DNA from: an uncultured delta proteobacterium
Lineage (GTDB): Bacteria > Myxococcota_A > Polyangia > Polyangiales > Polyangiaceae
Direction of reading: 5' to 3'
Length of the DNA: 64,000 nt
Assembly: GCA_903906315.1 (NCBI GenBank)
Contig: CAIVJW010000048.1
Coordinates: forward strand, 1 to 64,000
Shown here one piece after another: positions 2,915-60,059 of this stretch (its first letter is position 1; every line of letters starts with the position of its first letter). The notes beneath the pieces are model-generated. The model had not been told where the DNA came from. It made no database searches and saw only the letters and a list, made by a program, of their open reading frames with translations. The position numbers were made by a program, and so were the translations under genes.

Positions 2915-5900
2915 CCTTCGAGCCGATCGCGATCGTCGGGCAGGGCGCCGTCCTGCCCGGCGCGCTCTCGCCCGAGGCGCTGCGCGAGCTCGCCTTCGCC
3001 GGCCGCAGCGCCGTGCGCGGCGCGCCCGCCGGCCGCTTCCGCCTGCCCGACCAGCACGCCCTCGGCGCGCCCGACCACGCGGACGACCGCACCTGGTCGG
3101 ACGCGGGCGGCTACGTCGAGGGGTTCGACCGCGTCTTCGATCCGGGCGGCTTCCGGATCGACACCGACACGATCGGCGCGCTCGATCCCTCGTTCCGCTG
3201 GCTGCTGCACGCCGGGCGGCAGGCGCTCGCCCCGATCGGCCTCGCGGGCGCGTCGCCGCGCGCCGGGCTCGTGATCGGCAACCTGTCCTTCCCGACCGGC
3301 GCGATGGCGCGCCACGCCGAGAGCGTGTGGCTCGACGCGCAGGGCGAGGGGCTGCTCGGCGGGCGCGCGCGCGAGCTCGCCGGCGTCGACCGACCGGACC
3401 CGCGCTGCCGCTTCATGTCGGGCCTGCCCGCGCACCTCGCCGCGACCGCGCTCGGGCTCGGCGCGGGCGGCTTCGCGCTCGACGCGGCGTGCGCGTCGTC
3501 GCTCTACGCGATCAAGATCGCCTGCGATCGCCTGCACGACCGCACCGCCGACCTGATGGTCGCAGGCGCCGTCAACGGAGCGGACGCGCTCTTCCTGCAC
3601 GTGGGCTTCTGCGCGCTCGGCGCGATGAGCCGCACCGGGCAGAGCCGCCCGTTCCACCGCGAGGCCGACGGCCTCGTGCCCGCCGAGGGCGCCGCGCTCG
3701 TCGCGCTGATGCGCCTCGCGGACGCGCGCGCCGCGGGCCACCGCGTGCTCGGCGTCGTCCGCGGCGTGGGCCTGTCGAACGACGGCCGAGGCCGAGGGCT
3801 GCTCGCGCCCTCCGAGGAGGGGCAGATCCGCGCGATCCGGCTCGCGTACGCGATGAGCGGCCTCACGCCCCGCGACGTGTCGCTCGTCGAGTGCCACGCG
3901 ACCGGCACGCCCGTCGGCGACGGCACCGAGATCCGATCGATGCGCGCGATCTACGAGGGCGCGCGCGACGTGCCGATCGGGTCGCTCAAGTCGAACCTCG
4001 GCCACCTCATCACGGCCGCCGGCGTCGCGGGCCTGATCAAGGTGATCGGCGCGTTCGACGCGAGGGAGCGGCCGCCGACGCTGCACGCGGACGCGCCCAT
4101 CGACGCGCTCGCCGGGTCGCCGTTCCGCCTGATCGCGCAGCGCGAGCCCTGGCCCTCGGACGGGCCGCGCGTCGCCGCGGTGAGCGCGTTCGGCTTCGGC
4201 GGCAACAACGCCCACCTGATCGTCAGCGAGGACGACGGCCGCGCGCCCGCCTCGGCCGCGCGCGCCGCGGCCCCGAAGAGGGCGCCGATCGCGATCGTGG
4301 CCGTCGGCGCCCGCGCCTTCGGCACCACCGGCGCCGCCGAGGCCGCGCGCGCGCTGCTCTCGGGCGATCGGATCGCCGGCCGCCGTGCCGCGGTCGAGGT
4401 CGCGCTCACGGGCCTGCGCTTCCCGCCGCGCGACCTCGAGGCCGCGCTCGCGCAGCAGTCGCTCGTGCTCGAGGCCGCGCGCGAGGCCGCCGCGGGCCTC
4501 TCGCTCCCGCGCGAGCGCACCGGCGTCTTCATCGGCCTCGGCGCCGACCCCGAGGTCGCGCGCTACGGCATGCGCTGGCGCCTCGCCGCGTGGGCCGACG
4601 CGTGGGCCGCCAAGACCGGCTTCGCCCCGCCCGAGGGCTGGGTCGCGCGCGCTCGCGACGCCGTGGTCCCGAGGCTCGAGGCCGCGGGCGTCCTCGGCAC
4701 GATGCCGAACGTCCCCGCCAACCGCCTCTCGAGCCAGCTCGACCTCGGCGGGCCGGGCTACGTGATCTGCGCCGAGCAGGCCTCGGGCGTGGTCGCGATC
4801 GAGGTCGCCGCGCGCGCGCTGCGCGAGGGTGAGATCGACGCCGCCCTCGTGGGCGCGACCGACGCGTCCGACGAGCCCGTGCACCGCGCGGCCCTCGCGG
4901 CCCTCGGCCTCGACACCGGCGCGGGCGACGCCGCGATCGTGATCGCCCTCGAGCGCCTCGACGACGCGCGCGCGGCCGGTCACCGCGTGATCGCGGTGCT
5001 AGGCGACGACCCGGCCGAGGGCGCGCTCCTCGTCGGCGACGAGGGCGGCGCGGTCGATCCGATCCGCGGCGCCAGCCCGCACGCCGCCGCCGGCCTGGTG
5101 CACGCGGCCGCCGCCGCGCTCGCCATCGGCCACGCCGCGCGGCCTTCCGAGGGGCGCGGCCCCATCCCGTGGCTCGGCCCCCGCGCCGCCGAGACCCGCA
5201 CGCGCGTGCTCGGCGGCGGCGTCGCGTCGGTGCGCCTGCGCGCCGGCGACGCCCCGGCCCCGCTGCGCCTCGAAGCGCCGCCGCGCCTGTTCGTCTACTC
5301 GGGCGCCTCGCGCGCCGCCGTGATCGCCGCGCTCGACGCCGGGCGCGAGGGCGGCCCCGGGCCCGCGCGCCTCGTGATCGTCGCCGCGACCGAGGACGAG
5401 CGCGCCTCGCGCGCCGCCGCAGCCCGCCGCCACCTCGAGAAGGGCGGCCCCGCCACCGAGGGCATCGCCTTCCGCGACGCGCCCCTCGTGGGCGAGGTCG
5501 CCCTCTGCTTTCCCGGCGCCGCCGCCGCCTACCAGGGCATGGGCCGCGAGCTCGCGCTCGCCTTCCCGCGCCAGGTCGAGAGCCTCGCCGCGCGCTTCTC
5601 CTCGATCGACGGCGCGACCCGCTGGAGCTTCGGCCCGCCCGGCGACCCGCCCCACCCGCTCGACCAGCTCTGGTCGTGCGCGTTCCTCTGCCAGCTGCAC
5701 CGCGAGATCTCGCGCGACGTGATCGGCCTGCGCCCGAGCGCGACCATCGGCTACTCGTCCGGCGAGTCGAACGCGCAGTTCGCGATGGGCGCCTGGCGCG
5801 ACGTCGACGCGATGGTGCGCGCGTCCTGGGAGAGCTCGATCTTCCTGCGCGATCTCGTCGGCGATCACGCCTCCGCCAAGACCGCGTGGCGCGCCCTCGG

Positions 5901-45068: not shown

Positions 45069-46505
45069 TCAGGCCTCGGCGGCCACCGCCTCGCTCGCGC
45101 TGACGCACGAGGCCGGCTCTCCCTCGGCCCAGACGCGGTTGCGCCCCGACGTCTTCGCCCGGTACATCGCCCGGTCCGCCCGATCGACGAACGAGTCCAG
45201 CACCTCGCGGCACTGGAGCGTCGCGACACCGAGGGAGGCCGAGATCGGGATGGGCTCGCCCGCTTCGTCCTCGATGTGCTCGACGGCGATGGCCGCTCGG
45301 AGGCGCTCGGCGATCTCCTTCGCCTGAGCCGCGCAGGTCTGCGGCAGCAGCAGGACGAACTCCTCCCCTCCCCAGCGCGCGCAGAGATCCGCCGGCCGCA
45401 GGCTGCCCTGGACGAGCCTGCCGACCGCGTGGAGCACGCGATCTCCCGAGGCGTGGCCGCGCTGGTCATTGACCTGCTTGAAATGGTCGAGGTCGAACAG
45501 CACGAGAGACAGCGGCATCACGCAGTGGTCCGCCCGCGCGACCTCGCGCGTCGCCCCCTCGATGAACGCCCGACGGTTGAACATGCCGGTCAGCGCGTCG
45601 ACCGTCGCCTGTCGCCTCGACTCCTCGACGAGCGTCGACATGCGGACGGCGCCGCCGAGCTCGCGCGCGAAGACCTCGAGTAGCGAGGCGATCTCCTTCT
45701 CGGTCCCGGTGACCGGCGCGATGGCCACCGTCCCCACGCGCGTCTCGCCGAAGGAGATCGCCCGCACGAGCGGGGGCGGACCGTCGGTGCCGCCGACGGC
45801 GTCGTCGTCCTCGATGGAGATCGGCGCGAGCGCAGCCGCGGAAGGGCCGAGATCGAGGGCGGCCCGCGCCTCTCGTTCGGCGACCTCGCGCCCGCCCGGG
45901 CTCGCGTGGAGGCCGAAGCGCAGCGGCGAGAGGGTCTGGACCGTCAGCCATCGGTACGTCGCCACCTCGGACGCGAACTGCGCGAACCGGTCGAACAGGC
46001 GCTCGAACGACTCGCACACGGCGAGGTTGCGCACCTCGGCCGCGATGACCGAGTCGAAGAGCGCCGCGTCGAGGTGGGCCGCGATGCGGTCCCGGACGTC
46101 GCTGCCGTCGTCGGGGAGCACGGTGAAGAACTCGGCGTCGCCGCGGCTCACGACGGCCCGCGCGAGCGCGCGCACCAGATCGCCCATGCGCCCTTTCACC
46201 ACGTAGGCGATCGCCCCGGCGCGCTCCGCCCAGAAGCGATGCCGCCTCCCCTCCGCGCCGCGCAGGACGACGGGGACGTCCGACGTCGCGGGCTCGGCGC
46301 TGAGCAACCGACAGAGCTGCACGCCGGAAATGCTCGGCATCCAGAGGTCGGCGACGACCGCGGCGGGCGGATCCGTCAGGGCGAGGCGCGCCCCCTCCGC
46401 ACCATCGCTCGCCACCGTGACCTCGAACCCTTGCATGCCAAGCCGTGAGGCGAGAGCCTCGCGACCGATTGCGTCGGGATCAACCAGGAGGATTCGCCGG
46501 CCCAC
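45069..46505 (-). CDS. Response regulator diguanylate cyclase (REC - GAF-like - GGEEF)
   Basis: A 478-residue protein from GTG 46505. The receiver (1-125) has Asp10 and phosphoacceptor Asp53 in VVADLWMP; the conserved lysine is in VVKGR. A middle section (about 130-300) looks GAF-like. The GGDEF domain has LTGMFNRRAF, LFDLDHFKQVND, the active loop RWGGEEF with GGEEF at 379-383, and an inhibitory-site RPAD at 370-373, five residues ahead, so it should make c-di-GMP and be feedback-inhibited. It lies 31 bp after the hydrogenase maturation protease in the same direction, so it is probably the last gene of the hydrogenase/Che operon and a natural output of its phosphorelay. Confidence 0.93.
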   Translation of the reverse strand: MGRRILLVDPDAIGREALASRLGMQGFEVTVASDGAEGARLALTDPPAAVVADLWMPSISGVQLCRLLSAEPATSDVPVVLRGAEGRRHRFWAERAGAIAYVVKGRMGDLVRALARAVVSRGDAEFFTVLPDDGSDVRDRIAAHLDAALFDSVIAAEVRNLAVCESFERLFDRFAQFASEVATYRWLTVQTLSPLRFGLHASPGGREVAEREARAALDLGPSAAALAPISIEDDDAVGGTDGPPPLVRAISFGETRVGTVAIAPVTGTEKEIASLLEVFARELGGAVRMSTLVEESRRQATVDALTGMFNRRAFIEGATREVARADHCVMPLSLVLFDLDHFKQVNDQRGHASGDRVLHAVGRLVQGSLRPADLCARWGGEEFVLLLPQTCAAQAKEIAERLRAAIAVEHIEDEAGEPIPISASLGVATLQCREVLDSFVDRADRAMYRAKTSGRNRVWAEGEPASCVSASEAVAAEA

Positions 46506-46536: not shown

Positions 46537-47016
46537 TTAGCCGAGAGTGTTCGATGGGGCCCCGAGCTCGGCGCGCAGCAGGATCACCGTCGCGTCCACC
46601 GCCGCCTGGAGCGCGGGCGAGAGTGACATCGAGAAGGTGCCGCTCGGCCGCTCGATTTCCGCCCCGAGCACCTCGATCGCGGGCATCGGTCGCCCGTCGA
46701 ACAGGATCGGCAGGACGTGGAAGAGGTGGCTCAAGTCCATGGCGTGCGCCGAGAACGTCTCGACCGGCGGCGCCAGCTCGTCGAGCCGCAGGCGATGCAG
46801 GCGCCCCGGCGAGCCCCGAAGCTCCAGGGCGTCGACCACCACGGCACGGTCGCAGTCGTCGAACGCCGCGAGCGCGCCGAGGCCGAGCGTGCTGCCGTCG
46901 AAGATACGCACGTGGGCAGGCCAGAGGTGCGCGAGGAGCCGCCGGTGGACGTGCACGCCGAAGCCGTCGTCCCCCTGGACGAGGCTCCCGAAGCAGACGA
47001 CGTGGACGACTAGCAC
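46537..47016 (-). CDS. hupD: [NiFe]-hydrogenase maturation protease
   Basis: A 159-residue endopeptidase of the HyaD/HybD/HycI family, which removes the C-terminal peptide of the large subunit after nickel insertion. GTG 47016 is chosen since it overlaps the large-subunit stop by seven bases and puts the nickel-sensing motif VCFGSLVQGDDGFG at the N-terminus, as the family requires; the acidic pair DD is the expected nickel ligand region. The central DDCDRAVVVDALEL carries the second conserved acidic site, and FSAHAMDLSHL the conserved histidine. Its presence fits the 13-residue C-terminal extension on the large subunit. Confidence 0.9.
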   Translation of the reverse strand: MLVVHVVCFGSLVQGDDGFGVHVHRRLLAHLWPAHVRIFDGSTLGLGALAAFDDCDRAVVVDALELRGSPGRLHRLRLDELAPPVETFSAHAMDLSHLFHVLPILFDGRPMPAIEVLGAEIERPSGTFSMSLSPALQAAVDATVILLRAELGAPSNTLG

Positions 47017-48542
47017 GCGCCGAAGCGCGCGCGCTGTCCGGTGCGGACGAAGTGGACCGTGCACACCAGGCAGGCGTCGTGCGACCGGATGACGTGCCCG
47101 AGCTCGACCGGGTCGCTCTCGTCGGGAATGGGCGTGCCGATCAACGATTGCTCCCAGTGCCCGCGCACGCCGGCGGAGTCCCGAGGAGAAGCGTTCCAGC
47201 CCGTCGGCGAGATGACCTGATAGCGGGCGATCTTCCCCTCGCGGAGCTGCAGCCAGTGCCCCAGCGCGCCGCGCGCCGCGTGGACGAGGCCCGCACCGTC
47301 GCCTTCGTCGACGTCCCGGGGAGCGAGGTAGAAGGGGTCTGCGAGATCGCGCTCGAGGTCGAGGAGGGTGCGCCGGAGCAGCGACAGCGACAGCGCCGGG
47401 CGGTGGAGGCGCGCGAGCTGGCGCGTGAAGACGTCGACCCCCTCGGCGCGATAGAGCGACTCGATCAGTGGATCTCCCGCCATGAAGAGCTCCGGAAAGC
47501 AGCCGACCTCGACGACGTTGTCACGGTAGCGCGGCGCCTTCGCCCACGAGTACTTGTCGCCCTCCGGCTCGTAGCTCGGCACCGTCTCCCCCTTCCACGG
47601 GTGGGCCGGAGCGTGGTCTCGATACCACGAGTGCTTCACGTGCTCCGAGACGTCGGCCTGGGAGAACGGCTCGATGCGCGACGTGGCGGCGTCGTGGAAG
47701 CCACCGGCGCGCAGGCAGTGCCGCTCCGTGAACGGCGGCTGCCAGCGCGCGGGGTCGAAATACGCCCCGTAGCTGAGCATGCTGCCGCTGCCGCGACCGA
47801 GGCGCTGCAGGCCGACGTCGCGCGCCACGCGGACGAAGAGCCCGAGCGCGCCGTCGCGGTGCTCGGGCCGCTCGTCGATCCAGCGGTCGAGATCCTCGAG
47901 CGACCGAACCTCGAGCCAGCGATCGATCGAACAGCCGAGGACCGTGCGCTCGTACCACCGCGCGTAGCCGTCGAGGATCGAGAGCGCCTTGACCAGGCTG
48001 CGGCGGCTCTGCGCCCCGACCACGCCGCCGGGCACCATGTGCGAGGAGTGCGGCCACTGGCCGGCGAAGATCGCCACGACCTCGAGGAGCCTCTTCGTCT
48101 CGACGATCGTCTCGCGATAGACGCGCCCCGTGAACGGCGCGAAGGCCTCGTGGAGCTTGTCGCGCTCCGGATGGCCTGCGTAGCGAGGGCCGCACAGGTC
48201 GACCGTGAACATGAGGAACGCATGGCGCGCGTCCGACTGGATCTCCTCGGTCAGCAGGCAGGCGTTGCGCACCCGCGTGCCGTTCTGCGCGATCGCGCAC
48301 CCCATGGCGGTCTCCAGCGCGGTGACCGCCGCATACAGGTGCGCGGTGCCGCAGATCCCGCAGATCCGCGGGGTGATCACGAGCGCGTCCTTCTTGGCGC
48401 GGCCGAGCAGCAGCTGCTCGAAGCCGCGATACGTGGTCCCGACCGTCCAGGCGTCGGTGACGACGCCGTCCTCGATCTCCAGCTTGACGAGGAGATCCCC
48501 CTCCACGCGATTCAGTTCGACCGAAAGGGTCCGCTTGGCCAT
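47010..48542 (-). CDS. hupL: [NiFe]-hydrogenase large subunit, group 2-like
   Basis: A 510-residue catalytic subunit that carries the NiFe centre for H2 splitting. ATG 48542 has GAGG upstream and starts at the conserved LNRVEGDL. N-terminal ligands are in RICGICGTAH (Cys61, Cys64, His68). C-terminal ligands are in DACLVCTVH (Cys491, Cys494, His497), followed by 13 residues that the protease would cleave after His497. The usual DPC is DAC here. The N-terminus resembles cytosolic group 2 enzymes (cyanobacterial HupL, mycobacterial Huc) rather than membrane-bound group 1. Encoded between the small subunit (22 bp upstream) and hupD (overlap). Its operon with a kinase suggests H2 sensing or a signalling-linked uptake role. 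Confidence 0.93.
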   Translation of the reverse strand: MAKRTLSVELNRVEGDLLVKLEIEDGVVTDAWTVGTTYRGFEQLLLGRAKKDALVITPRICGICGTAHLYAAVTALETAMGCAIAQNGTRVRNACLLTEEIQSDARHAFLMFTVDLCGPRYAGHPERDKLHEAFAPFTGRVYRETIVETKRLLEVVAIFAGQWPHSSHMVPGGVVGAQSRRSLVKALSILDGYARWYERTVLGCSIDRWLEVRSLEDLDRWIDERPEHRDGALGLFVRVARDVGLQRLGRGSGSMLSYGAYFDPARWQPPFTERHCLRAGGFHDAATSRIEPFSQADVSEHVKHSWYRDHAPAHPWKGETVPSYEPEGDKYSWAKAPRYRDNVVEVGCFPELFMAGDPLIESLYRAEGVDVFTRQLARLHRPALSLSLLRRTLLDLERDLADPFYLAPRDVDEGDGAGLVHAARGALGHWLQLREGKIARYQVISPTGWNASPRDSAGVRGHWEQSLIGTPIPDESDPVELGHVIRSHDACLVCTVHFVRTGQRARFGAC

Positions 48543-48564: not shown

Positions 48565-49509
48565 TCAGAGCTTGGATTTGCGCTCGAGGAGCCGCGCCGG
48601 CGCCGCGGACCGAGCGAGGCCCTTGTAGGCCATGTACGAGGCCCGATTGACCCCCAGCGGCAGGACCACCGGCACCTCACCGATCTTGTTGGTCTTGAAC
48701 AGGTCGTGCGCTCTGGGGAAAGCCGGGGACGTGCACGCGAAGCAGGGCACCCCGACGCGCGGCTTGCTGCTCTGGTTGTTCCACAAGATGCTGTTGCAGG
48801 TCGCCATCGTCGTCGGGCCTTCGCACCCGAGATTGAAGAACAGGCAACCGGGTGCTCCGAAGTCGCGCTCCTCGACGTCGAACTCGTGGTACTCATTTCG
48901 CGTGCAGCCCTGGTGCACCAGCGTCGAGTAGAACTCGGTCGGTCGGTGAAGGTGATCGAGCTCGAGGCGCATGCCGGAAAGAGCCCACAGCAGCGTCTGC
49001 ACCATGGTGTTCGGGTGCGCGGGGCAGCCGGCCAGGTTGATCACCGGGAGCCCAGCACGGGACCGGAACTCCCGCTCGAGGAGCCCGCCGTCCGGCTCGT
49101 CGCGGAGGAACTGCAGGCCGACGGCGTCGGTGGGGTTCGGCCCCGAGGCCGGGATGCCCCCGAACGCCGCGCAGGTGCCCATCGCGAGGACGAACTGCGC
49201 CTTGGCGGCGAGGCCGGCGACGAGGTCCTTCTTGGGCCGTCCTCCGAAGGAGTCGAACATCCCCGTCCCGTCCGGCCCGAGCAGGATCGACCCCTCGACG
49301 CACAGCACGGTGAGATCGATCTCGTCGGCCAGGATTCGGTCGATCGTCCGGCCGAGGTCGGCCGCCGACGTCGGCGAGAGCGACGGGTGCCACAGGAGCT
49401 CGACGCCGTGGCCCTCGAGGAGCTCCAGCAGGTCGGGTGACTCCGCGCAGAGCAGCGACATGGAGTCTCCGCTGCACGCGGCCGTTTGCATCCACAGCAG
49501 GGTCGGCAC
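48565..49509 (-). CDS. hupS: [NiFe]-hydrogenase small subunit, group 2-like
   Basis: A 314-residue electron-transfer subunit. GTG 49509 has GAGGAG upstream. There is no Tat signal, so it is cytosolic as in group 2. The N-terminal proximal-cluster motif reads ACSGDSMSLL: Cys12 is present but the usual second cysteine is Asp15, as also happens in cyanobacterial HupS (ACSGNT). Other iron-sulfur ligands are in MGTCAAFGG, LAGCPAHPN, LVHQGCTRN, NLGCEGPT, MATCNSIL and VPCFACTSPAF, enough for three clusters. There is no C-terminal membrane helix. It directly follows the Rieske-like sensor kinase gene (39 bp), so electrons from H2 could reach that kinase. Confidence 0.93.
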   Translation of the reverse strand: MPTLLWMQTAACSGDSMSLLCAESPDLLELLEGHGVELLWHPSLSPTSAADLGRTIDRILADEIDLTVLCVEGSILLGPDGTGMFDSFGGRPKKDLVAGLAAKAQFVLAMGTCAAFGGIPASGPNPTDAVGLQFLRDEPDGGLLEREFRSRAGLPVINLAGCPAHPNTMVQTLLWALSGMRLELDHLHRPTEFYSTLVHQGCTRNEYHEFDVEERDFGAPGCLFFNLGCEGPTTMATCNSILWNNQSSKPRVGVPCFACTSPAFPRAHDLFKTNKIGEVPVVLPLGVNRASYMAYKGLARSAAPARLLERKSKL

Positions 49510-49548: not shown

Positions 49549-52500
49549 CTAGTCGTGATAGGCGCGCAGCGTGATGGTCATTTCGGTGCCACGACCGACC
49601 TCGGTGTGGATGTCGAGGCGAGCACCGATCTTCGCCAGGTTGGTCGCCACGACGTCCATCCCGATCCCGCGCCCGGAGATGTCGGAGACCACGGCGGCCG
49701 TCGACAGGTGAGGCAGCAGGACGAGCCGCACGGTCTCCTCGCGGGAGAGCGCGGCGACCTCCTCCGCGGTGCGCAGGCCGAGCTCGACCACGCGCCGCCC
49801 CACCTGGTCGGGGTCGATGCCTCGACCGTCGTCGTGGATCTGCACGGTCGTGACGCCGTCGTCGCACGCGCAGTCCAGGCCGATGATCCCGATCTCGCTC
49901 TTGCCGGCGGTGACCCGCACGCCGGGAGGCTCGATGCCGTGGTCGAGCGCGTTGCGCAGCATGTGGACCAGCGCTTCCTGCAGGACGTAGATCTCGTCGC
50001 GCGGCACGGCGATGCTGCTATCGCCGGAGATGCGGAGCTCGACGCGCTTGCCGAGCCTCGTCGCGACGTCTTGCACGGTGTCGTGGTACTTGAACAGCGC
50101 AGGCAGCAGCGGCGCGTCGAGCAGCCTGTCGAGCCGCTGCTGCACGAGCAGGAGCGCGTCGTCGGTGCGTTGCTCCCGGTACGATCCGAGCGTCCGTTTG
50201 AGCGTGTTGATGTTGTAGGCCATCACCTCCACCGTCTGGACGCGGTCGCAGAGCAGCTGGAAGTTGCCCGCGAGCAGCTCGCGGACCGAGGTCACGAGCC
50301 GGCCGACCGCCACCTTCTTGAGGTACTGACACTCGGGGGCGTCGTCCGCCCGGAAGAGCTCTCCGCCGTCGCCGAGCTGTCCGAACACGGCGTTCACTTC
50401 CGCGGGCGAGGTCCTGGCCCAGAGCTCGGAGAGCACGTCGCCGAGGTCCGCGACGTCGTGCGACGAGAGGAACATCCGCGCCGTCACGACCGCGCTCTCG
50501 TGGCCGAAGAGCCGCCCTATCGCGCGGAGGGTCGCGGTGGGCTCGGTGCCCGCGCGACGCTGCGCGCCGAGGAACGACACGAAGCAGCCGGCGCGCGCCT
50601 TGTTGCCGTCGAGGCTGCGCATCGCCCCCCCGCGGTCGCGATCGCCACGCCCGACCGCGGCGAGGATGTCCTTGCGCTCGCCGGCGCGGAGCACCGCGAA
50701 CGACTCCAGCACCGACACGAAGCCGAGGTGCCTCCACGCCTCGCGCAGCAGGGCGGCGTCCCCGGGGCCTTGCGCGTGCCCGAAGCGCGCGCCCCCGAGC
50801 CCGCTGAGGAGCGTCGCCACGTACTCCTCGCCGAGCGCGCTGGCCGACGAAATGGCGTTCTCGACGGCGCGATCGATCGCGAGTCGGTCCGCCCCCGCGT
50901 TCGCGGCCGTGATCGCGAAGAGCCCGAGGAACAGCGACACCCAGCCCGTGGCCGAGAGTGAGCAAGGGGACGTCGAGGAGACGTACGTCCGGGCGGCCAC
51001 CTCGACCAGCGCGAGGTGGTGCCGACGGAATGCCGCGATCGGACATTCCAGGTCTCCGCGGTCGGGCTCGAGCGAGCCGAGGGACGCCTCGACCTCACGA
51101 AGGGCCGTGTCGAGGGCCTGATTCGCAACTCCCCCTGCGGCGTCGCGCACCACGTCGAGCGCCGCGCGCAGCTCGGTCGCGGGCACGCACGCGCGGAGGC
51201 GCCGCGCGTGCTCGGGATCGAGGTCGGTCGGCGGCGTGCCGAGCGATCGGCCGAACCAGGCGCCGACCTTCGCGTCGAGCGCCGACATGCCCCCGTGCAG
51301 CCGGGCCAGGGTGCGGACCTCGAAGTCGTTGGGGATCCGGAGGATCTTCGACGCGAGCGAGCCATATTCCCCGACGACGCGCTGGATGTCGGCGATGCGC
51401 TCGGCGAGAGGCGCCCGCGAGGCGGCCGGATCGCCGTCCATGAGCGTCTTCGCCTCGTTCTCGGCCTCGTGGGTGGTCGTGCCGATGAGGCGCAGCCCGA
51501 GCGCGCGCGAGTTGCCCTTCAGCGTGTGCAGGTTGCGCATCACCACGACGGCCCGAGCGCCCTCGAGCGGGCCGCGGGCGAGCAGGGCGCGCGCGTCGGT
51601 CAGCAGCGTGCAGGCGCTCGCGAGGAAGACCCGCAGGTCCTCCGGTCGGTTGCGCACCAGCTCCTCGACGACCTGGATACGCCGCTGATTCGCCGCCTTC
51701 TCCTCCTCCATCTGCCGCTCCAGGAGCTCGATTCGCGTGACGTCGTCGACGACGATCATCATGCGGTCCATCAAGCCGGCCGCGTCGCGAAGCGGGCAGT
51801 AGCCGACCTTGAGGATGGCGACCTGCTCGCCGTCGGCGTCCACCGACGTGCGTCGGCAGAGGACCCGCGTCGGCAGGAGGTCGACCATGAGGTCCCACTG
51901 GAACTCCTCGGCGTCGAAGGTGGTCAGGAAGGCCATGTTGAGCAGCGAGAACGCCTCGCTCTCGCGCTCGACGTCCTTGAAGAGCACGTCGAAGACGCTC
52001 TGGCCGGCGATCTCCCGACCGAACACGGTGGCGGAGAAGCGCGACACCGGCTCGATGATCTCGCCGCTGGCCACCACGACGAAGACCGCCTGGCGCATGT
52101 TGTCGAGGAGGCCGGCGACCTTGTCGTACGCCACGCCGAGCGCGAGCTGGGCGGACTTGATCTCGCGGATGTCGGTGCCGACGACGACGAGCCCTTCCCT
52201 CTTGCCGGCGGCCCCGTAGAGCACGGACGTGCGCAGCAGGTGCGCCGCGATCTCGCCCGCCTTCGTTCGCAGCGACACGTCGAACTCGCCGTGCGGCTTC
52301 GCGGCGAGCGCGGAGTAGGCGCAGGTGCGCCCGGTGGCGAGGAGTGCGGCGAGATCCTCGGCGGCGAACAAGGCGTCGATCGGGTGACCGAGGACCTCCG
52401 CCGCCGAGTAGCCGAGGAGATCGTAGAGGCGCTGGTTTGCCTGCTTCACCCGACCCGACGTGTCGAGCACCACGAGGACCTCGGTCATCGTGTTCGTGAC

Positions 52501-53124
52501 GCGACCCACGAAGTCGCTCACCTCGGCGATCTGCGAGTTCGTCCGCTCGAGCAGCCGCCGCTTCTCGTCGACCTCGGCCACCATGGCGTCCATCTGCCGC
52601 AGCGTCTCGAGCGTCTGGTGCTCGCGGAGACGAGCGGCCTCGGTCAGGGCCCGGACCTCCTGCACGAGCGCCGTCGTCCGCTCCTCGGCCGGGTGCGCCC
52701 TGACCGAGAGGGCGAAGTCGGGCGCGAGCGGCTCGCGCTTCTCGGCGTCCCACAGCAGGTAGAGCGCTTCGCCGTCGGCCTCGACGAGGAACACCTTGAG
52801 GGCTCCGCCGCGGAGATCGTACTCGGTGCGGTGGAGCGGGCACTCGAGCACGTACGGACCGACGAAAACCGCCTCGGCGAGGCTGTCGTGCTCCTGCGGG
52901 CAGAACGCCGGAATGGCGATCACCTCGCCACCCTGCCGGAGCACCACGAGGGATCGCCCGCGCAGCGATCCGGGGAACCTGGCCTTGCCCGTCCAGCGTC
53001 GATCGCCCCGGACCTCGACCGGCCGGAGCTCCTCGATCGCGAGGCGCACCGGTCCGCCGCCGCGCGGGCCGCCTTCGGTAGCGGCACCGCCGAGCGTTCG
53101 CGCCGCTGCGGAGTCCGGGTTCAT
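49549..53124 (-). CDS. CheA-like histidine kinase with N-terminal Rieske-like and PAS domains
   Basis: A 1191-residue protein from ATG 53124. Residues ~25-135 look like a Rieske [2Fe-2S] fold: FCPQEHD (Cys75, His79; spacing C-x3-H rather than the classical C-x-H) and ECPLHRTEYDLRGG (Cys95, His98). A coiled coil (150-205) leads to two PAS domains (about 208-325 and 340-470), the first with the conserved LLGYSAAEVLGHP. An HPt-like segment contains NLHTLKGNSRALG with His533 as likely phosphate acceptor. A long helical middle (about 570-1000) is not recognised. The C-terminus is a CheA-type ATPase: MLRNALDHGIE, DDGRGID, GRGIGMDVV. There is no CheW-like domain. Located between cheX and hupS, it could sense hydrogenase-derived electrons through the iron-sulfur domain; that is inference. 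Confidence 0.85.
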   Translation of the reverse strand: MNPDSAAARTLGGAATEGGPRGGGPVRLAIEELRPVEVRGDRRWTGKARFPGSLRGRSLVVLRQGGEVIAIPAFCPQEHDSLAEAVFVGPYVLECPLHRTEYDLRGGALKVFLVEADGEALYLLWDAEKREPLAPDFALSVRAHPAEERTTALVQEVRALTEAARLREHQTLETLRQMDAMVAEVDEKRRLLERTNSQIAEVSDFVGRVTNTMTEVLVVLDTSGRVKQANQRLYDLLGYSAAEVLGHPIDALFAAEDLAALLATGRTCAYSALAAKPHGEFDVSLRTKAGEIAAHLLRTSVLYGAAGKREGLVVVGTDIREIKSAQLALGVAYDKVAGLLDNMRQAVFVVVASGEIIEPVSRFSATVFGREIAGQSVFDVLFKDVERESEAFSLLNMAFLTTFDAEEFQWDLMVDLLPTRVLCRRTSVDADGEQVAILKVGYCPLRDAAGLMDRMMIVVDDVTRIELLERQMEEEKAANQRRIQVVEELVRNRPEDLRVFLASACTLLTDARALLARGPLEGARAVVVMRNLHTLKGNSRALGLRLIGTTTHEAENEAKTLMDGDPAASRAPLAERIADIQRVVGEYGSLASKILRIPNDFEVRTLARLHGGMSALDAKVGAWFGRSLGTPPTDLDPEHARRLRACVPATELRAALDVVRDAAGGVANQALDTALREVEASLGSLEPDRGDLECPIAAFRRHHLALVEVAARTYVSSTSPCSLSATGWVSLFLGLFAITAANAGADRLAIDRAVENAISSASALGEEYVATLLSGLGGARFGHAQGPGDAALLREAWRHLGFVSVLESFAVLRAGERKDILAAVGRGDRDRGGAMRSLDGNKARAGCFVSFLGAQRRAGTEPTATLRAIGRLFGHESAVVTARMFLSSHDVADLGDVLSELWARTSPAEVNAVFGQLGDGGELFRADDAPECQYLKKVAVGRLVTSVRELLAGNFQLLCDRVQTVEVMAYNINTLKRTLGSYREQRTDDALLLVQQRLDRLLDAPLLPALFKYHDTVQDVATRLGKRVELRISGDSSIAVPRDEIYVLQEALVHMLRNALDHGIEPPGVRVTAGKSEIGIIGLDCACDDGVTTVQIHDDGRGIDPDQVGRRVVELGLRTAEEVAALSREETVRLVLLPHLSTAAVVSDISGRGIGMDVVATNLAKIGARLDIHTEVGRGTEMTITLRAYHD

Positions 53125-53134
53125 CTGAAGTACT

Positions 53135-53680
53135 CTAGAACAAAAGACACTCGCCCTGTTCAGCGGCGTCGTTCGACTCCGTCGATTCGAGTGGCGAGAG
53201 CTCGACCTCGGGCTCCGCCGTTGCGTCGAAATGGAGATCGAAGGTCGACTCCGCCGCACGGAACCGCAGGCGCGCAAACCCTTCGCGTGGGTCGACCCGA
53301 CCCCGCAGCTCGGTCCCCTGCATCGTCATGGGCGTGCACAGCTGAAGCACGATCCCGTGTCGAAGCAGGCGATTCTTGAGCTGACCCAGGATCTGGTTCG
53401 AGATCTCGCCCGCCCAATCGTGGAACGCCGCGAGCGGGTCGCCCGTGATCTTCCCGCGCATCGGGTGCGTTTGCTCGAGCAGCAGCTGCGGCAGCACGAG
53501 CGCGAGCGAGCCCGATAGCTTCGCACCGGAGAAGCCGATGAAGGCGATGACACCGGAGGCTGGAGGTTCGTTGGACGCGAGGGATCCCTCGCAGCGAGCC
53601 ACGACCCCACAATGGCTGAAGAACTCGGCGCAACAGGCCTCGAGCTCCCCGTGGACGACGCCCCAGCTCTCAGGTTTCAA
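53135..53680 (-). CDS. cheX: CheX-type CheY-phosphate phosphatase
   Basis: A 181-residue protein of the CheC/CheX/FliY fold. The phosphatase helix carries EISN in DWAGEISNQILGQLKNRL, giving Glu92 and Asn95, the E-x2-N pair that dephosphorylates CheY. The single such helix indicates CheX rather than CheC. The start is TTG 53680, because GGAGGG lies seven bases upstream and homology begins immediately; no ATG or GTG fits. It follows cheY by 49 bp and precedes the sensor kinase by 10 bp, so it probably sets the lifetime of the phosphorelay signal. Confidence 0.85.
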   Translation of the reverse strand: MKPESWGVVHGELEACCAEFFSHCGVVARCEGSLASNEPPASGVIAFIGFSGAKLSGSLALVLPQLLLEQTHPMRGKITGDPLAAFHDWAGEISNQILGQLKNRLLRHGIVLQLCTPMTMQGTELRGRVDPREGFARLRFRAAESTFDLHFDATAEPEVELSPLESTESNDAAEQGECLLF

Positions 53681-53693
53681 TGGGATTCCCTCC
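53678..53693 (-). promoter_or_regulatory. Ribosome binding site and TTG start of cheX
   Basis: On the minus strand GGAGGG is followed by seven bases and TTG. The strong Shine-Dalgarno sequence supports the unusual start codon, since the in-frame codons further upstream are not family-like. Confidence 0.65.
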
Positions 53694-53729
53694 GCCGGTC
53701 CGCCCCGACGTCCATGGAGATCGAGGCCG

Positions 53730-54098
53730 TCACGCCCCGGCGATCTTCCGGACTGCACCGATTAGCATGTCGGGCTTGAACGGCTTGACCATCCAGCCCT
53801 TGGCGCCGAGCGCCTTCGCCTTCGTGATGAGATCCACGGATCCCTCGGTCGTGAGCATGACGACGGGCGGCAGGGCGCGCCCGTTGCCCTTGAGCTTCTC
53901 GAGCATCTCGAGGCCGCTCATTCGAGGCATGTTCACGTCGCAAATCACCATGGCCACGTCGAGGTTGGCGTCGAGCTTGCGGATCCCGTCCTCGCCGTCG
54001 ACAGCCTCGATCACCGTGTACCCGGCCGGGCCGAGCGAGAAGGCGACCTGCGATCGAATGGTGCTGGAGTCGTCGACGACGAGAATCTTCTTGGCCAC
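53730..54098 (-). CDS. cheY: CheY-like single-domain response regulator
   Basis: A 122-residue receiver from GTG 54098, with GGAG six bases upstream. Asp9/Asp10, phosphoacceptor Asp54 in ICDVNMP, the Thr in MLTTEG and Lys105 in VKPFKP are all present. It has no output domain, so it must act on another protein. As first gene of the che/hydrogenase operon it is the expected phosphate acceptor for the CheA-like kinase two genes on, with CheX as phosphatase. The 228 bp to the divergent lipoprotein gene should contain the operon promoter. Confidence 0.92.
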   Translation of the reverse strand: MAKKILVVDDSSTIRSQVAFSLGPAGYTVIEAVDGEDGIRKLDANLDVAMVICDVNMPRMSGLEMLEKLKGNGRALPPVVMLTTEGSVDLITKAKALGAKGWMVKPFKPDMLIGAVRKIAGA

Positions 54099-54326
54099 GG
54101 GTGCTCCTCGCCCCTGTCGAAGCTCCGGCGACGGGCGGCTCCCGCGACGGCTATGGGACGGGGTCCATGGATCGGCCCCATCGGAGAATGCTTTAGGATC
54201 GCAGTCGGCGAATGTCGCGAGGCGCCCCCGCTCCGCTCGGCCCGCCGGCGCGCCGGGATTGCGCCCGCGTACGTGCCGAGATACCCGCTCACCTCGCGGG
54301 CGGAGCGCTCGCAGAGGAGCCTCTTC

Positions 54327-56351
54327 ATGAATCGCTCGCACTACCGCCTCTTCGCCCTCGCGGTGCTCGTCGCCGGCTGCGGCAGCGAGCCAGAGGGGCT
54401 CCCGGCCTCCTCCCCCTCCACGACCGGTGGTGCGCCCGCGCCGGTCGCGCGCTTCGCCGTGCCGGCAGACCTGGCGTCGCTCGATGGTTCGGGCTGGCTC
54501 GACCACCCGTGGCCGAGCGACCTCCGACGCGAGGCGGACGGCCGGGTTCGTCTCGCCGGCTTCCCGAAGGCGGACCTCCCCGGCGCCGTCTCCGCCTGGG
54601 TGAGCCAGGTTCGCGACGAGCTATCGGACTTTTCGCCCGTCGCAGCCGGGTTCCTCGCGTTCGAGGGAGCGATCGACCCCGGCCAGCTGCCGGACGCGGC
54701 GGCGTCGCTCGAGGCGTCGTCCGTTTTGCAGCTCGTCGACGTCGACGAACGCAGCCCCGACGTCGGCAAGCGCGTCCCCCTTCAGTGGGCGTGGCGCGAG
54801 CCCGTGGGCTACTACTTCGTCGCACCGAACACGCTCGCGTTCGCGCCGGCCCTCGGCGCGTCGATGAGGCGATCGGAGCGCTACGCCGTCGTCGTGACCC
54901 GCGAGCTCACCGGACCGGGCGGCGCCGCGGCGCCGAATGCCGATCTCGCCGAGCTGCTGGCCGGTCGTGGGCCGCTCGCGGCGAGCTGGTCCCCCGCGAT
55001 CGACGCGCTCGAGAAGGCCGGCGTCGCGCGCGCGCGCATCGCGCACCTCTCCGTGTTCACGGTCGGCGACCCGGTCGCCGAGACCGTGAAGCTCGCCGCG
55101 CACGCCCGCAAGCAGCCGCTCCCCAAGGTCGAGACCCTCACGCTCGCGAGCCTCGGAGAGGGCGGCTTCGACGAGTACACCGGGTTTTACCTGGGCGCTC
55201 CGGACTACCAGGTCGGCACCCCCCCGTACTCCTCCGAAGGCGGGCAGATCGCCCTGGACGACGCCGGGGATCCGATCGTTCAGCGCACGCTCCGACAGCG
55301 CTTCAAGCTGCTGGTGCCGAGCGCCGCGAAGTGCCCGCCCCCCGCGGACGGATACCCGATCATGCTCTATGCCCATGGCACCGGGGGTGACTGGACGACC
55401 CTGATCACGGCGGGCACCGGCGCAGCGCTGGCGGCCAGCTGCATCGCCTCCATGTCCGTCGACCAGCTCTTCCACGGCGTGCGCCCCGGCGCGCCGCCGG
55501 AGGACGACCCGAACGCCGAGGCGAAGGCCGGGGTCGCCTTCTTCAACGTGTCGAACGCCAACGCCCTCCGCAACAACAACACGCAGGCGGCTATCGACGA
55601 GGTCATGCGCGCGCGGCTCGTGCAGAGCGGCGGCCTCACGATCGACGCTGCCGCCTCGGCGAGCGGCGCGGCGATCGCGTTCGACCCGAAGCGGATCGGC
55701 TTCTACGGGCACTCGCAGGGCACCTTCAACGGCGCCGTGTTCCTCGCGCTCGACGAGAACCTCGCGCGCGGCGCCGTCCTCTCCGGCTCGTGCTCCTCGT
55801 TCGCCCACTGGACGATGCTCCGCGTGAACATCCAGCCGTCGGTGCCCCACCTGCTCGAGATCGTCCTCGGCGTCCCGGCTGATTTCCACGACGAGCTCGG
55901 TCCCCTGCACCCGGCCATGGCGCTGTTCCAGACGATCGCCGACCCGTCCGATCCCATCCACTACTACCCGCTGATCACGCGCGCGCCGCTCGAGGGCCAC
56001 GCGCCGAAGAGCGTGCTGATGACCGAGGGCATCGCGCCCGACGGCTCCGGCGACAACTACGTCCCGCCGCCGATCATCGAGGGCAACGCGATCGCCGGGG
56101 GCTTCCCGCTCATCGCCCCGGTGGTGCGCGACATCCCGCTCCTCACCCAGGTGTCGGGCATCCGCGTCGCGACGCCTCCGTTCGCCGGCAACCTCGCCGG
56201 CGGACAGGCGACCGGCGGCCTCGCGCAGTTCGTGCCCTCGGGCGGCGTCGACGGGCACTACGTCGCGCGGCAGGGCAAGGCCCTCGCGATGACGATGACG
56301 TACGCGGAGTCGCTCCTGTCGACGAGCGTGCCGACGATTCCGGCGCCCTGA
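54327..56351 (+). CDS. Lipoprotein alpha/beta hydrolase
   Basis: A 674-residue protein. ATG 54327 has GAGGAG eight bases upstream and begins a lipoprotein signal (LFALAVLVAGC, Cys18). The hydrolase part shows YPIMLYAHGTGGDW (oxyanion HG), nucleophile Ser463 in GHSQG and a late His in GVDGHYVA. Residues ~60-330 form a large N-terminal region typical of myxobacterial/Bdellovibrio surface hydrolases. The substrate is unknown. It is divergent from the cheY operon and lies 100 bp before the ArsM-like gene; the gap makes co-transcription with that cluster possible but not certain. Confidence 0.85.
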   Translation: MNRSHYRLFALAVLVAGCGSEPEGLPASSPSTTGGAPAPVARFAVPADLASLDGSGWLDHPWPSDLRREADGRVRLAGFPKADLPGAVSAWVSQVRDELSDFSPVAAGFLAFEGAIDPGQLPDAAASLEASSVLQLVDVDERSPDVGKRVPLQWAWREPVGYYFVAPNTLAFAPALGASMRRSERYAVVVTRELTGPGGAAAPNADLAELLAGRGPLAASWSPAIDALEKAGVARARIAHLSVFTVGDPVAETVKLAAHARKQPLPKVETLTLASLGEGGFDEYTGFYLGAPDYQVGTPPYSSEGGQIALDDAGDPIVQRTLRQRFKLLVPSAAKCPPPADGYPIMLYAHGTGGDWTTLITAGTGAALAASCIASMSVDQLFHGVRPGAPPEDDPNAEAKAGVAFFNVSNANALRNNNTQAAIDEVMRARLVQSGGLTIDAAASASGAAIAFDPKRIGFYGHSQGTFNGAVFLALDENLARGAVLSGSCSSFAHWTMLRVNIQPSVPHLLEIVLGVPADFHDELGPLHPAMALFQTIADPSDPIHYYPLITRAPLEGHAPKSVLMTEGIAPDGSGDNYVPPPIIEGNAIAGGFPLIAPVVRDIPLLTQVSGIRVATPPFAGNLAGGQATGGLAQFVPSGGVDGHYVARQGKALAMTMTYAESLLSTSVPTIPAP

Positions 56352-56451
56352 TCGGACGGCGCGCCGCGCGGTGGACGAGGCGGCGCGGGAAATCCGCGAA
56401 CCCTTCGCCGAGCCCCTGGCTCCCACCCTCGAGCACCAAGGAGGGTCGGCG

Positions 56452-57093
56452 ATGAGCGAAGCGATCGAGACGAGATACGGCGGCCTGGCCGAGTCGAGCT
56501 GCTGCCTCTCCTGCGGCACCGCCGCTCAGTCTTGCGCGCCGAAACCCGGGCAGGTTTGCCTGGATCTCGGCAGTGGGCGCGGGACGGACGTGCTGCGCCT
56601 CGCGGAGGCGGTGGGCCCGACGGGGCACGCCTACGGCGTCGACCTCGCCGACGGCATGCTCGAGAAGGCGCGGCGCACCGCGGAGAAGCTCGGCGTCACG
56701 AACGCGACCTTCTTCCGGTCGACCTTCGACCGCCTCGCGCTGCCGGGCGAGTCGGTCGACTGGGTGGTGTCGAACTGCGCCCTGAACCACGCCGACGACA
56801 AGCCGGCGGTGTGGCGCGAGATCGCGCGCGTCCTGCGCACGGGCGGCGCGTTCGTCGTCAGCGACATCTACGCCGCCGAGCCGATCCCCGAGGATCTCGC
56901 CCGCGACCCGGAGGCGGTGGCGGAGTGCTGGGCCGGCGCCGTGACGCGCGCCGAGTACCTCGCCCAGATCGCGGCCGCGGGGCTCGTGGACGTCCGCGTC
57001 CTCGAAGAGAGCACTCCGTACGAGAAGGGCAAAGCGGTCGTCGCGAGCTTCACCCTCACGGGCACGAAGCGAGCGTCCGGCCGCTGCTGCTGA
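56452..57093 (+). CDS. ArsM-like SAM-dependent methyltransferase
   Basis: A 213-residue protein from ATG 56452, with AAGGAGG seven bases upstream. The SAM-binding motif CLDLGSGRGTDVLRLAE and GVDLADGML match arsenite methyltransferases. Cys109 (VSNCALN) and Cys159 (AECWAGA) are 50 residues apart, the spacing of the two arsenic-binding cysteines (174 and 224) in the well-studied algal ArsM. An N-terminal SSCCLSCG and the last residues RCC add further thiols. It is shorter than typical ArsM (270-400 residues), lacking the C-terminal domain. Arsenite or a thiol-bound arsenical is therefore the likely substrate. First gene of the radical SAM cluster; 32 bp precede the peptide gene. Confidence 0.85.
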   Translation: MSEAIETRYGGLAESSCCLSCGTAAQSCAPKPGQVCLDLGSGRGTDVLRLAEAVGPTGHAYGVDLADGMLEKARRTAEKLGVTNATFFRSTFDRLALPGESVDWVVSNCALNHADDKPAVWREIARVLRTGGAFVVSDIYAAEPIPEDLARDPEAVAECWAGAVTRAEYLAQIAAAGLVDVRVLEESTPYEKGKAVVASFTLTGTKRASGRCC

Positions 57094-57344: not shown

Positions 57345-58658
57345 ATGGAACTGTCGCGCCACAACATCCTGACCCGCGTCCACGACGCCGACGCCTACCT
57401 GCTCGCCAACCTGCTCAGCCGCCAGGCCGACGTCCTGCCGCTCGAGGACGGCCAGCGCCTCGAGCGCGGAGAGCTCGTCCACGAAGCCGACCTCGTCGCC
57501 AAGGGCTACCTCGTCGAGCCCGACGAGGAGCGCAGTCGCTTCCGGAAGGCGTACCTCGGTTTTCTCGCGTCGCGCGAGTCCGACGAGGTTCAGCTCTTCT
57601 ACGTCCCGACGTACGCGTGCAATTTCGGCTGCTCGTACTGCTACCAGGACGAGTACGCGCCGCCCCCCGTCGAGGCGCAGGACGCCGTCCTCGAGGCGTT
57701 CTTCGCGTACGTCGAGGCGACGTTCACCGGGCGCCGCAAGTACGTCACGCTGTTCGGGGGCGAGCCGCTGCTCCCGAGCCCGTCGTCGCGCCACGTCGTC
57801 ACGCGCCTCGTGACCGAGACGGCGCGCCGCGGCCTCGATCTCGCGGTCGTGACCAATGGCTACCACCTCACCGAGTACGTCCCGCTGCTCGCGGGGGGGC
57901 GCATCCGCGAGGTCCAGGTCACGCTCGACGGCACCGAGCGCGTGCATGATGGCCGCCGCTACCTCAAGGGCGGCGCCTCGACCTTCCGTCAGGTCGTCGC
58001 CGGCGTGGACGCCTGCCTCGCCGCCGGTCTGCCCGTGAACCTGCGCACCGTGCTCGACCGCGACAACGTGGAGGCATTCGCGGACCTCGCCCAGTTTGCC
58101 ATTGCGCGCGGCTGGACGGACAGCCCGCTCTTCAAGACGCAGATTGGCAGAAACTACGAGCTTCACCATTGCCAGAGCGAGCGGCAGAAGCTCTACACGC
58201 GGCTCTCGCTCTACGAGGACCTCTACCGGATCGCGAAGGCGAGCCCGGAGCTCCTGCGCTTCCACGAGCCCGCGTTCTCCGTGGCGCGCTTCCTCTTCGA
58301 GCGCGGCGCGCTGCCGGACCCGCTCTTCGACGCGTGCCCGGCCTGCAAGACGGAGTGGGCCTTCGACTACACGGGCCGCATCTACCCGTGCACGGCCAAC
58401 GTCGGCAAGCAGGGCGAGGCCGTCGGGACGTTCTACCCGCAGCGCCGGCTCGACGCGGCGCTGACCGAGCCGTGGGAGGACCGCGACGTGATCGCCATCG
58501 ACACGTGCAAGAGCTGCGCAGTGCAGCTCGCCTGCGGCGGCGGCTGCGGCGCGGTCGCGAAGAACCGCGACGGGACCGTGACGGCCCCCGACTGCCGCCC
58601 GATCAAGGAGCTGCTGTCGCTCGGCGCCGCCCTCTACGGCGGTGACGCCGTCGCCTGA
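57345..58658 (+). CDS. Radical SAM/SPASM peptide-modifying enzyme
   Basis: A 437-residue protein from ATG 57345, preceded by GAGGGG. The N-terminal ~85 residues resemble the PqqD-like/RRE-type wing of peptide maturases. The radical SAM cluster motif is ACNFGCSYC (Cys92, Cys96, Cys99), followed by LFGGEPLL. The C-terminal SPASM region has ACPACKTEW, IYPCTANVG, CKSC and ACGGGCGAV, enough for two auxiliary [4Fe-4S] clusters. Relatives install thioether, C-C or epimerised residues in ribosomal peptides or act as anaerobic sulfatase maturases; with the small Cys peptide next door, the first is favoured. The 87-bp gap to the peptide gene is modest. Confidence 0.92.
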   Translation: MELSRHNILTRVHDADAYLLANLLSRQADVLPLEDGQRLERGELVHEADLVAKGYLVEPDEERSRFRKAYLGFLASRESDEVQLFYVPTYACNFGCSYCYQDEYAPPPVEAQDAVLEAFFAYVEATFTGRRKYVTLFGGEPLLPSPSSRHVVTRLVTETARRGLDLAVVTNGYHLTEYVPLLAGGRIREVQVTLDGTERVHDGRRYLKGGASTFRQVVAGVDACLAAGLPVNLRTVLDRDNVEAFADLAQFAIARGWTDSPLFKTQIGRNYELHHCQSERQKLYTRLSLYEDLYRIAKASPELLRFHEPAFSVARFLFERGALPDPLFDACPACKTEWAFDYTGRIYPCTANVGKQGEAVGTFYPQRRLDAALTEPWEDRDVIAIDTCKSCAVQLACGGGCGAVAKNRDGTVTAPDCRPIKELLSLGAALYGGDAVA

Positions 58659-58766
58659 CGCGCGCACCCCGAACCGCTTCCGACGCGCCAGGCTCTACCG
58701 TTGCGAGCAAGCGCTGCCCGCAGTGAGCCGCGCCTCCGCACCCGTGCACGCCGACGAGGTAGATCG

Positions 58767-60059
58767 ATGTCCGCCAAGGTCCGTGAGATCGACGCCGAGA
58801 GCTTCCAGGTCGAGGTGCTGGCCCAGGAGGGGCCCGTCGTCGTCGACTTCTACTCGACCGAGTGCGCTCCCTGCGAGGCGCTCGCCCCCAAGTACGAGGC
58901 GCTCGCCGAGCTCTACGGTGCCGACGTGAAGTTCGTGAAGATCTTCCGCCAGCAGAGCCGCGAGCTCTCCGAGCTCTTGGCCGTGCGCACCTCGCCTACG
59001 GTCCTGTTCTTCCGCAACGGCCAGGAGGTGAGCACCCGGCAGAGCGGAGGCATCCGCCGGTCGGCCCTCGTCGCCTCGCTCGACACGCTGGTCTCGCCCG
59101 ATCGCGCGGCGGAGATCCACGCCGCCGTCCGCCCGGTCGAGACGCGGTGCGACGTCCTCATCCTCGGCGCCGGCCCCGCCGGCATCACGGCGGGCATCTA
59201 CTCCGCGCAAGCGAAGCTCGACACGATCATGGTCGACATCGCCCTCGGCGGCGGCAACCTGACCGTCACGCACCAGGTGTCGAATTTCCCCGGCTTCCCC
59301 AAGCCGCAGCAAGGCTTCATGCTCGCGCACTACCTGCTCGAGCACGCCAAGGAGGCGGGCGTGAAGGGGCGCTTCGCGGCCGAGATCACCCGCGTCGATC
59401 TCGCCGCACACGAGGTCGTCCTCGACGGCGTCGAGACGATCCACGCGAAGAGGATCATCATCGCGACGGGCTCGTCTCCCCGCACAATCGGGGTCTCCGG
59501 CGAGGTCGAGTACAAGGGCAAGGGAGTGTCGTACTGCGCGACCTGCGACGCCAAGTACTACGAGAACCAGCACGTCATCGTCATCGGTGGCGGCAACTCG
59601 GCCATCGAAGAGGCCCTCTTCATCGCGCGCTTCGCCTCGAAGATCACCGTCGTGCACCAGTTCGCCGAGCTCCAGGCCAACAAGCAGGCGCAGAGCCTCG
59701 CCTTCGCGAACCCGAGGATCGAGTTCCTCTTCCGCCACGAGCCGCGCGAGTTCGTCGCGTCCGACGGGCGCGCCATCGACGCCGTCGTGGTCGAGGACCT
59801 CGAGACGCACGAGCGCAAGACCCTGCCCTGCGGCGGCGTGTTCGTCTTCGCCGGCATGCGCCCGAACCTCGAGCTCTTCGAGGGCGCCTTCGAGCTCGAC
59901 CGCTTCGGCTACGTCAAGGTCGACGAGGAGATGCACACGAACCTCCCGGGCGTGTTCGCGGCCGGCGACATCGTGAGCAAGCGCTACCGCCAGATGACCA
60001 CCGCGGTCGCCGACGGCACCATCGCGTCGATCGCGCTGGCCCGTGAGCTCGCCGCATGA
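58767..60059 (+). CDS. Thioredoxin - thioredoxin reductase fusion
   Basis: A 430-residue protein from ATG 58767. Residues 1-110 are a thioredoxin fold with the variant site ECAPCEAL (Cys33, Cys36; CAPC). Residues 125-430 are a low-molecular-weight thioredoxin reductase: FAD motif GAGPAGITAG, redox pair CATC (Cys257, Cys260), NADPH motif GGGNSAIEEA, and the C-terminal FAGMRPN and GVFAAGDI. Thioredoxin precedes reductase, the reverse of the Mycobacterium leprae fusion. It would supply electrons to thiols, which arsenite methylation needs. The transporter gene overlaps it by ATGA. Confidence 0.93.
   Translation: MSAKVREIDAESFQVEVLAQEGPVVVDFYSTECAPCEALAPKYEALAELYGADVKFVKIFRQQSRELSELLAVRTSPTVLFFRNGQEVSTRQSGGIRRSALVASLDTLVSPDRAAEIHAAVRPVETRCDVLILGAGPAGITAGIYSAQAKLDTIMVDIALGGGNLTVTHQVSNFPGFPKPQQGFMLAHYLLEHAKEAGVKGRFAAEITRVDLAAHEVVLDGVETIHAKRIIIATGSSPRTIGVSGEVEYKGKGVSYCATCDAKYYENQHVIVIGGGNSAIEEALFIARFASKITVVHQFAELQANKQAQSLAFANPRIEFLFRHEPREFVASDGRAIDAVVVEDLETHERKTLPCGGVFVFAGMRPNLELFEGAFELDRFGYVKVDEEMHTNLPGVFAAGDIVSKRYRQMTTAVADGTIASIALARELAA

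Follow-up and report, generated by a model that had tools for sequence, protein, structure and literature searches.

We analyzed a stretch of 64,000 nucleotides (the window) that starts contig CAIVJW010000048.1 of an uncultured delta proteobacterium of the family Polyangiaceae. On the minus strand of the window lies an operon in which the gene of a large sensor kinase adjoins the genes of a [NiFe] hydrogenase (Table 1). The N-terminal domain of the kinase belongs to the Rieske family. The fusion of this domain to a PAS/CheA-like kinase adjoining a [NiFe] hydrogenase is well supported.

Table 1. Genes of the operon and features of the kinase, ordered by position in the window.
Feature	Coordinates	Strand	Evidence or remark
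REC-GGDEF response regulator (diguanylate cyclase)	45069..46505	-	PF00072 + PF00990; closes the operon
Hydrogenase maturation protease	46537..47064	-	PF01750, TIGR00072; adjoins the large subunit gene
[NiFe] hydrogenase large subunit, group 2c	47010..48530	-	PF00374, tree, motif comparison
[NiFe] hydrogenase small subunit	48565..49509	-	PF01058 + PF14720
Whole kinase gene	49549..53124	-	1191 aa, ATG at 53124
Kinase domain order: Rieske, coil-PAS, second PAS-like region, Hpt (His533), CheA-like HATPase (1049-1188)
Coil-PAS module, residues 145-329 of the kinase, homologous to the HoxJ/HupT input module	52138..52692	-	tblastn
Rieske-family domain, residues about 52-122 of the kinase	52759..52971	-	PF00355 + custom profile
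Loop 2, C95-P-L-H98, canonical C-x2-H	52831..52842	-	sequence + profile alignment
Loop 1, C75-P-Q77-E-H79, Gln77 at the canonical His position	52888..52902	-	alignments
CheX-like protein (chemotaxis phosphatase family)	53135..53758	-	PF13690, 36 bits vs cut-off 27
CheY-like receiver, start approximate	53730..54098	-	PF00072, residues 141-252 of ORF 53730-54506

The original prediction had placed a PAS/CheA-like kinase behind the N-terminal domain, and all of its parts were matched by Pfam: PAS (about residues 210-321), Hpt (497-568; PF01627, 31 bits) and HATPase (PF02518, 45 bits), preceded by the Rieske match at residues 54-109. The HATPase part was also matched by the CheA models of NCBIfam. 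No HisKA domain was detected in the kinase by Pfam, and the transmitter consists of Hpt and the CheA-like HATPase instead. These two domains are common to the kinase and CheA. However, the window kinase has no Pfam CheW-like domain and adds PAS and Rieske inputs: none of the Pfam matches at E <= 1 was a C-terminal CheW-like domain, and the HATPase extends to residue 1188, three residues short of the C-terminus. The N-terminal region, of which residues 1-108 correspond to positions 52800-53124 of the minus strand, reads as coding sequence (third-position GC of 0.88 over residues 53-120).

This N-terminal domain is clearly homologous to Rieske proteins, as judged from sequence comparison. In the HMM search against Rieske families that had been proposed as a check of the original prediction, PF00355 scored 28.0 bits against the isolated domain and 24.0 bits within the whole protein (residues 54-109), both above the cut-off of 20.3, and in a search of the organism's own genome the domain scored 28.8 bits as Rieske. 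A profile built from 11 other Rieske domains gave 32.2 bits for the kinase domain and no more than 6.4 bits for shuffled copies (5000 copies searched, 3540 reported, 6.4 bits being the top score). A pattern scan had yielded four canonical Rieske oxygenase domains, which were used in this profile (three of them) and in an alignment. Among PDB entries, the domain was best matched by 3gce, the ferredoxin of carbazole dioxygenase (E 0.0024). We regard the homology as real because of the scores with PF00355, the custom profile and 3gce.

The residues on which the original prediction was based, namely C75-x3-H79, C95-x2-H98 and a YDLRGG tail, are all present within 52800-53124 of the minus strand, with YDLRGG at residues 102-107 after C95-P-L-H98. 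However, the claim that two residues have been added between the Cys and His of loop 1 was not borne out. C75 and the conserved L82 are as far apart as in the canonical CPHxxxxL, and therefore the loop contains no insertion (C75 and C95 are 20 apart). In alignments with 3gce, with the relatives L074 and L175 and with others, Gln77 occupies the usual position of the loop-1 histidine, and His79 follows two residues further on, where the aligned relatives carry G, E, N or D. Thus the C-x-H loop is absent from the kinase domain, which reads CPQEH with Gln at +2 and His at +4. This motif was kept in all 28 of the Rieske relatives from the same class that were extracted from the 29 loci found by a class-wide search; the 29th locus (L200) gave no motif. 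The Pro loop after the second motif is likewise missing when the alignment with L175 and other relatives is read. The domain therefore differs from the homologous oxygenase Rieske ferredoxins such as 3gce, which have C-x-H, in its C-x3-H loop and in the lack of the Pro loop. Residues 1-267 contain no cysteine other than Cys75 and Cys95. L175 itself (3971-4417 on a Methylobacterium plasmid) is a stand-alone Rieske protein followed by the genes of a response regulator and a hybrid sensor kinase.

In the archaeal Rieske ferredoxin ARF, a single His to Cys substitution abolished cluster assembly (PMC2946596). The substituted residue, His44, is apparently the loop-1 histidine, the position lost in the kinase. 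Because the loop-1 His is replaced in the kinase and the ARF substitution at apparently the same position blocked assembly, a standard Rieske cluster in the kinase domain is doubtful. As for the Rieske fold that had been predicted at the kinase N-terminus, the homology stands while the normal cluster does not, since Gln takes the place of the loop-1 His and there is no Pro loop. Judging from the residues retained, some metal centre is still probably held on Cys75, Cys95 and His98 together with His79 or Gln77.

The original prediction had referred to group 2a hydrogenases. By its L2 motif and its position in the tree, the hydrogenase of the operon is instead a group 2c enzyme, a putative H2-sensing hydrogenase. 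The large subunit carries the motifs RICGICGTAH (L1) and SHDACLVCTVH (L2), so that the Ni-Fe motifs are kept, and a short C-terminal extension follows L2. The published group 2c consensus, SFDxCLVCTVH, is given beside a Thiomargarita sequence, SHDACLVCTVH (PMC4853749); the L2 motif of the window departs from the consensus at one residue and matches that of the Thiomargarita 2c protein exactly. In an IQ-TREE analysis of 21 large subunits, the window protein paired with that of Ideonella dechloratans (support 100/99) within a clade of twelve (90/94) that stood apart from HoxC/HupV and from three further proteins (L045, L091 and L092), the group labels of the reference rows being partly inferred. 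The clade of these three was taken as group 2a because the L091 and L092 loci also encode a HucE-like NifU-Rieske protein. These HucE-like proteins (L099, 11259-12350; L100, 6297-7358) are found near the hydrogenases read as 2a in relatives of the window organism. HydDB describes group 2c as 'Diguanylate cyclase-linked (putative)', and the linkage expected of the group is present in the operon in the form of the REC-GGDEF gene. Two more [NiFe] large subunit genes are located on other contigs of the same genome (L083 on C44 and L084 on C244), and these are possible targets of H2 regulation.

Between the Rieske-derived domain and the transmitter, the kinase contains a coil-PAS module of the kind that forms the input part of HoxJ and HupT. 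A tblastn search of 72,556 plasmid records with residues 145-329 gave eight matches at E <= 0.01, and all of them were kinase genes. A regulatory hydrogenase was adjacent in seven of the eight, as read from the gene neighbourhood in four cases and from match coordinates in three; the eighth match, a second Cupriavidus necator H16 record with the same coordinates, was left outside this count. In C. necator pHG1, the small and large subunit genes of the regulatory hydrogenase (HoxBC operon) are followed by the matched kinase gene, which we take to be hoxJ. The matched gene is adjoined by HupU and large subunit genes on the A. oryzae and Acidovorax plasmids, and on the A. thermophilum plasmid a hydrogenase large subunit gene lies about 1 kb downstream of it. 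In three other Azospirillum records, the kinase match is no more than 2 kb from a HupU match by coordinates. Pairwise, the module is 27.6% identical to HoxJ over 163 aa (E 3e-13) and matches HupT of A. oryzae with E 6e-16. Most of the signal comes from the PAS part; the coil alone scored 25.0 bits, weakly above the best shuffle (23.1 bits). A homologous module (E 1e-15) also starts a GGDEF-EAL protein adjoining the hydrogenase in the Ideonella 2c operon. The direct connection of the Rieske-derived domain to this HoxJ/HupT-type input module strengthens the idea that the hydrogenase signal reaches the kinase at its N-terminal region.

The operon resembles the group 2b systems HoxBC-HoxJ of C. 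necator and HupUV-HupT, in which hydrogenase genes likewise adjoin a kinase with a homologous coil-PAS module. However, the window hydrogenase falls in the 2c clade and has a C-terminal extension and a protease gene. The kinase, unlike HoxJ and HupT, has an Hpt/CheA-like transmitter rather than one of the HisKA type, together with the added Rieske domain and a REC-GGDEF output. The nearest 2c system is that of the I. dechloratans plasmid NZ_CP088082.1, whose large subunit is the sister of the window protein (52% identical; small subunit 61%). The two share the protease gene, the coil-PAS module and a cyclic di-GMP output, but the Ideonella module is carried by the GGDEF-EAL protein and its operon has neither a Rieske domain nor an Hpt/CheA-like kinase. 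A Rieske-family domain is also linked to a group 2 hydrogenase in HucE, the NifU-Rieske protein of the group 2a hydrogenase Huc. HucE differs from the window domain in being a separate protein with a NifU-like domain, a C-x-H loop and no kinase.

The Rieske-kinase fusion had been thought to be new, and it still looks so: no second case was seen among the several hundred related genomes searched. With the whole kinase as query, 98 genomes of the family and 177 of the order contained no ortholog of the fusion and one relative (L007). This protein is 30% identical, covers residues 206-1187 only, adjoins a CheY-like gene and lacks the Rieske domain. No second fusion was found with the Rieske and PAS parts in 377 genomes of the phylum, or with the Rieske part alone in 377 phylum and 317 class genomes; these samples overlap and include some incomplete genomes, and the window genome is the one in which the fusion is known. 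The Rieske query also matched five long ORFs (L210-L214); a simple pattern test revealed no kinase motif in any of them, and two cannot be called clear Rieske domains. Viral contigs scanned with the Rieske queries contained no relatives, and the part of the literature covered yielded no Rieske-kinase fusion. Four kinases from Bdellovibrionota-type bacteria, picked up in a scan of genome contigs, had no hydrogenase or Rieske matches and were set aside.

The kinases that adjoin other 2c-like hydrogenases (L068, L071, L094, L096, L097 and L098) have HisKA-like, HATPase and receiver parts as read from sequence, and a pattern search found no Rieske motif in these six. Four further loci (L069, L070, L095 and L101), some on short contigs, were covered by BLAST and pattern search only. 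Other 2c loci thus seem to function with no Rieske domain, and this counts against our best explanation of the operon, as do the loss of the loop-1 His and the Pro loop, the lack of a fusion ortholog among the genomes searched and the weak score of the coil alone. That explanation, which we hold to be rather probable, is an H2-signaling operon built around the group 2c hydrogenase, with docking on the coil-PAS module, a CheA-like kinase, a cyclic di-GMP output and the Rieske-derived domain as an add-on. An H2-signaling role of the operon is likely.

By analogy with HoxBC-HoxJ, the hydrogenase would oxidize H2 slowly and dock on the coil-PAS module of the kinase. Its redox or binding state may alter the activity of the CheA-like HATPase, which would lead to phosphorylation of His533 in the Hpt domain. 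The phosphate would then pass to the REC-GGDEF protein, which is predicted to make cyclic di-GMP, and to the CheY-like protein, and the CheX-like protein may reset the signal. The Rieske-derived domain, placed directly before the docking module, would be a lineage-specific addition whose metal centre might tune the kinase or take electrons from the hydrogenase. The homologies, the gene order and the ligand changes were observed directly. On this basis we infer the rest of the scheme: that the hydrogenase docks and the kinase depends on H2, which proteins exchange phosphate, and that a metal is bound and electrons are transferred.

What the Rieske-derived domain contributes can be explained in several ways. 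It is possible, and we put this forward tentatively, that the Rieske fold was kept and the cluster lost, the domain serving for hydrogenase binding or dimerization while the signal travels as a conformational change by way of the coil-PAS module, in the manner suggested for HoxJ. The replacement of the loop-1 His by Gln and the missing Pro loop are consistent with such a loss, as are the block of cluster assembly by the ARF substitution at the presumed same position and the lack of a Rieske domain in the other 2c kinases examined. A nitrate-assimilation protein with substituted 2Fe-2S-binding Cys and His has also been mentioned (PMC3475470). However, Cys75, Cys95 and His98 are kept in a region whose first 267 residues have no other cysteines, and a second His stands two residues from the lost one. 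These same residues would allow a [2Fe-2S] cluster whose fourth ligand would be His79 or Gln77 and which would act as electron acceptor of the hydrogenase: three of four ligands are present, the extra His is near and the hydrogenase of the operon keeps its Ni-Fe motifs. We consider such a cluster rather doubtful, since the loop-1 His is at the position that apparently could not be replaced by Cys in ARF and the loop that covers the cluster is missing. It is similarly doubtful that the kinase is switched by an altered metal centre that accepts electrons from the 2c hydrogenase, in which case the kinase itself would register H2 oxidation directly, through its own redox state. A mononuclear Zn or Fe site of the zinc-ribbon or rubredoxin type on Cys75, His79, Cys95 and His98, structural or redox active, is unlikely: two Cys and two His do lie within two short motifs and the ARF variant H44I/K45C/H64C, with its loop-1 ligand shifted by one residue, formed Fe(Cys)4 in a Rieske scaffold (PMC2946596), but no relative with this Cys/His arrangement was found. 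The confidences given to these three states of the domain do not add up to certainty because other arrangements are possible.

Accounts differ, between electron-transfer and conformational models, of how a sensory hydrogenase reports H2 to its kinase. The current model of regulatory hydrogenases needs continuous H2 oxidation and electron transfer (PMC10073562), and a review proposes a conformational change and differential binding of HoxJ (PMC6978683). With its candidate metal domain fused to an input module that is linked to hydrogenases, the window kinase is a soluble system open to testing. If a metal centre is held, the domain could be the point at which hydrogen-derived electrons are turned into a signal for the cell; if the domain is free of cofactor, it would show that a Rieske scaffold can be put to new use in nature after losing its cluster. 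The comparison also indicates that one input module is connected to three outputs, namely the HoxJ/HupT kinases, the GGDEF-EAL protein and the CheA-like kinase.

Upstream of the operon, the plus strand of the window encodes a radical SAM/SPASM protein that resembles RiPP maturases (57345-58658), with an ArsM-like methyltransferase adjoining it (56371-57093). The same strand also carries, at 58701-60059, a thioredoxin fused to a thioredoxin-reductase-like protein, as read from the translation.
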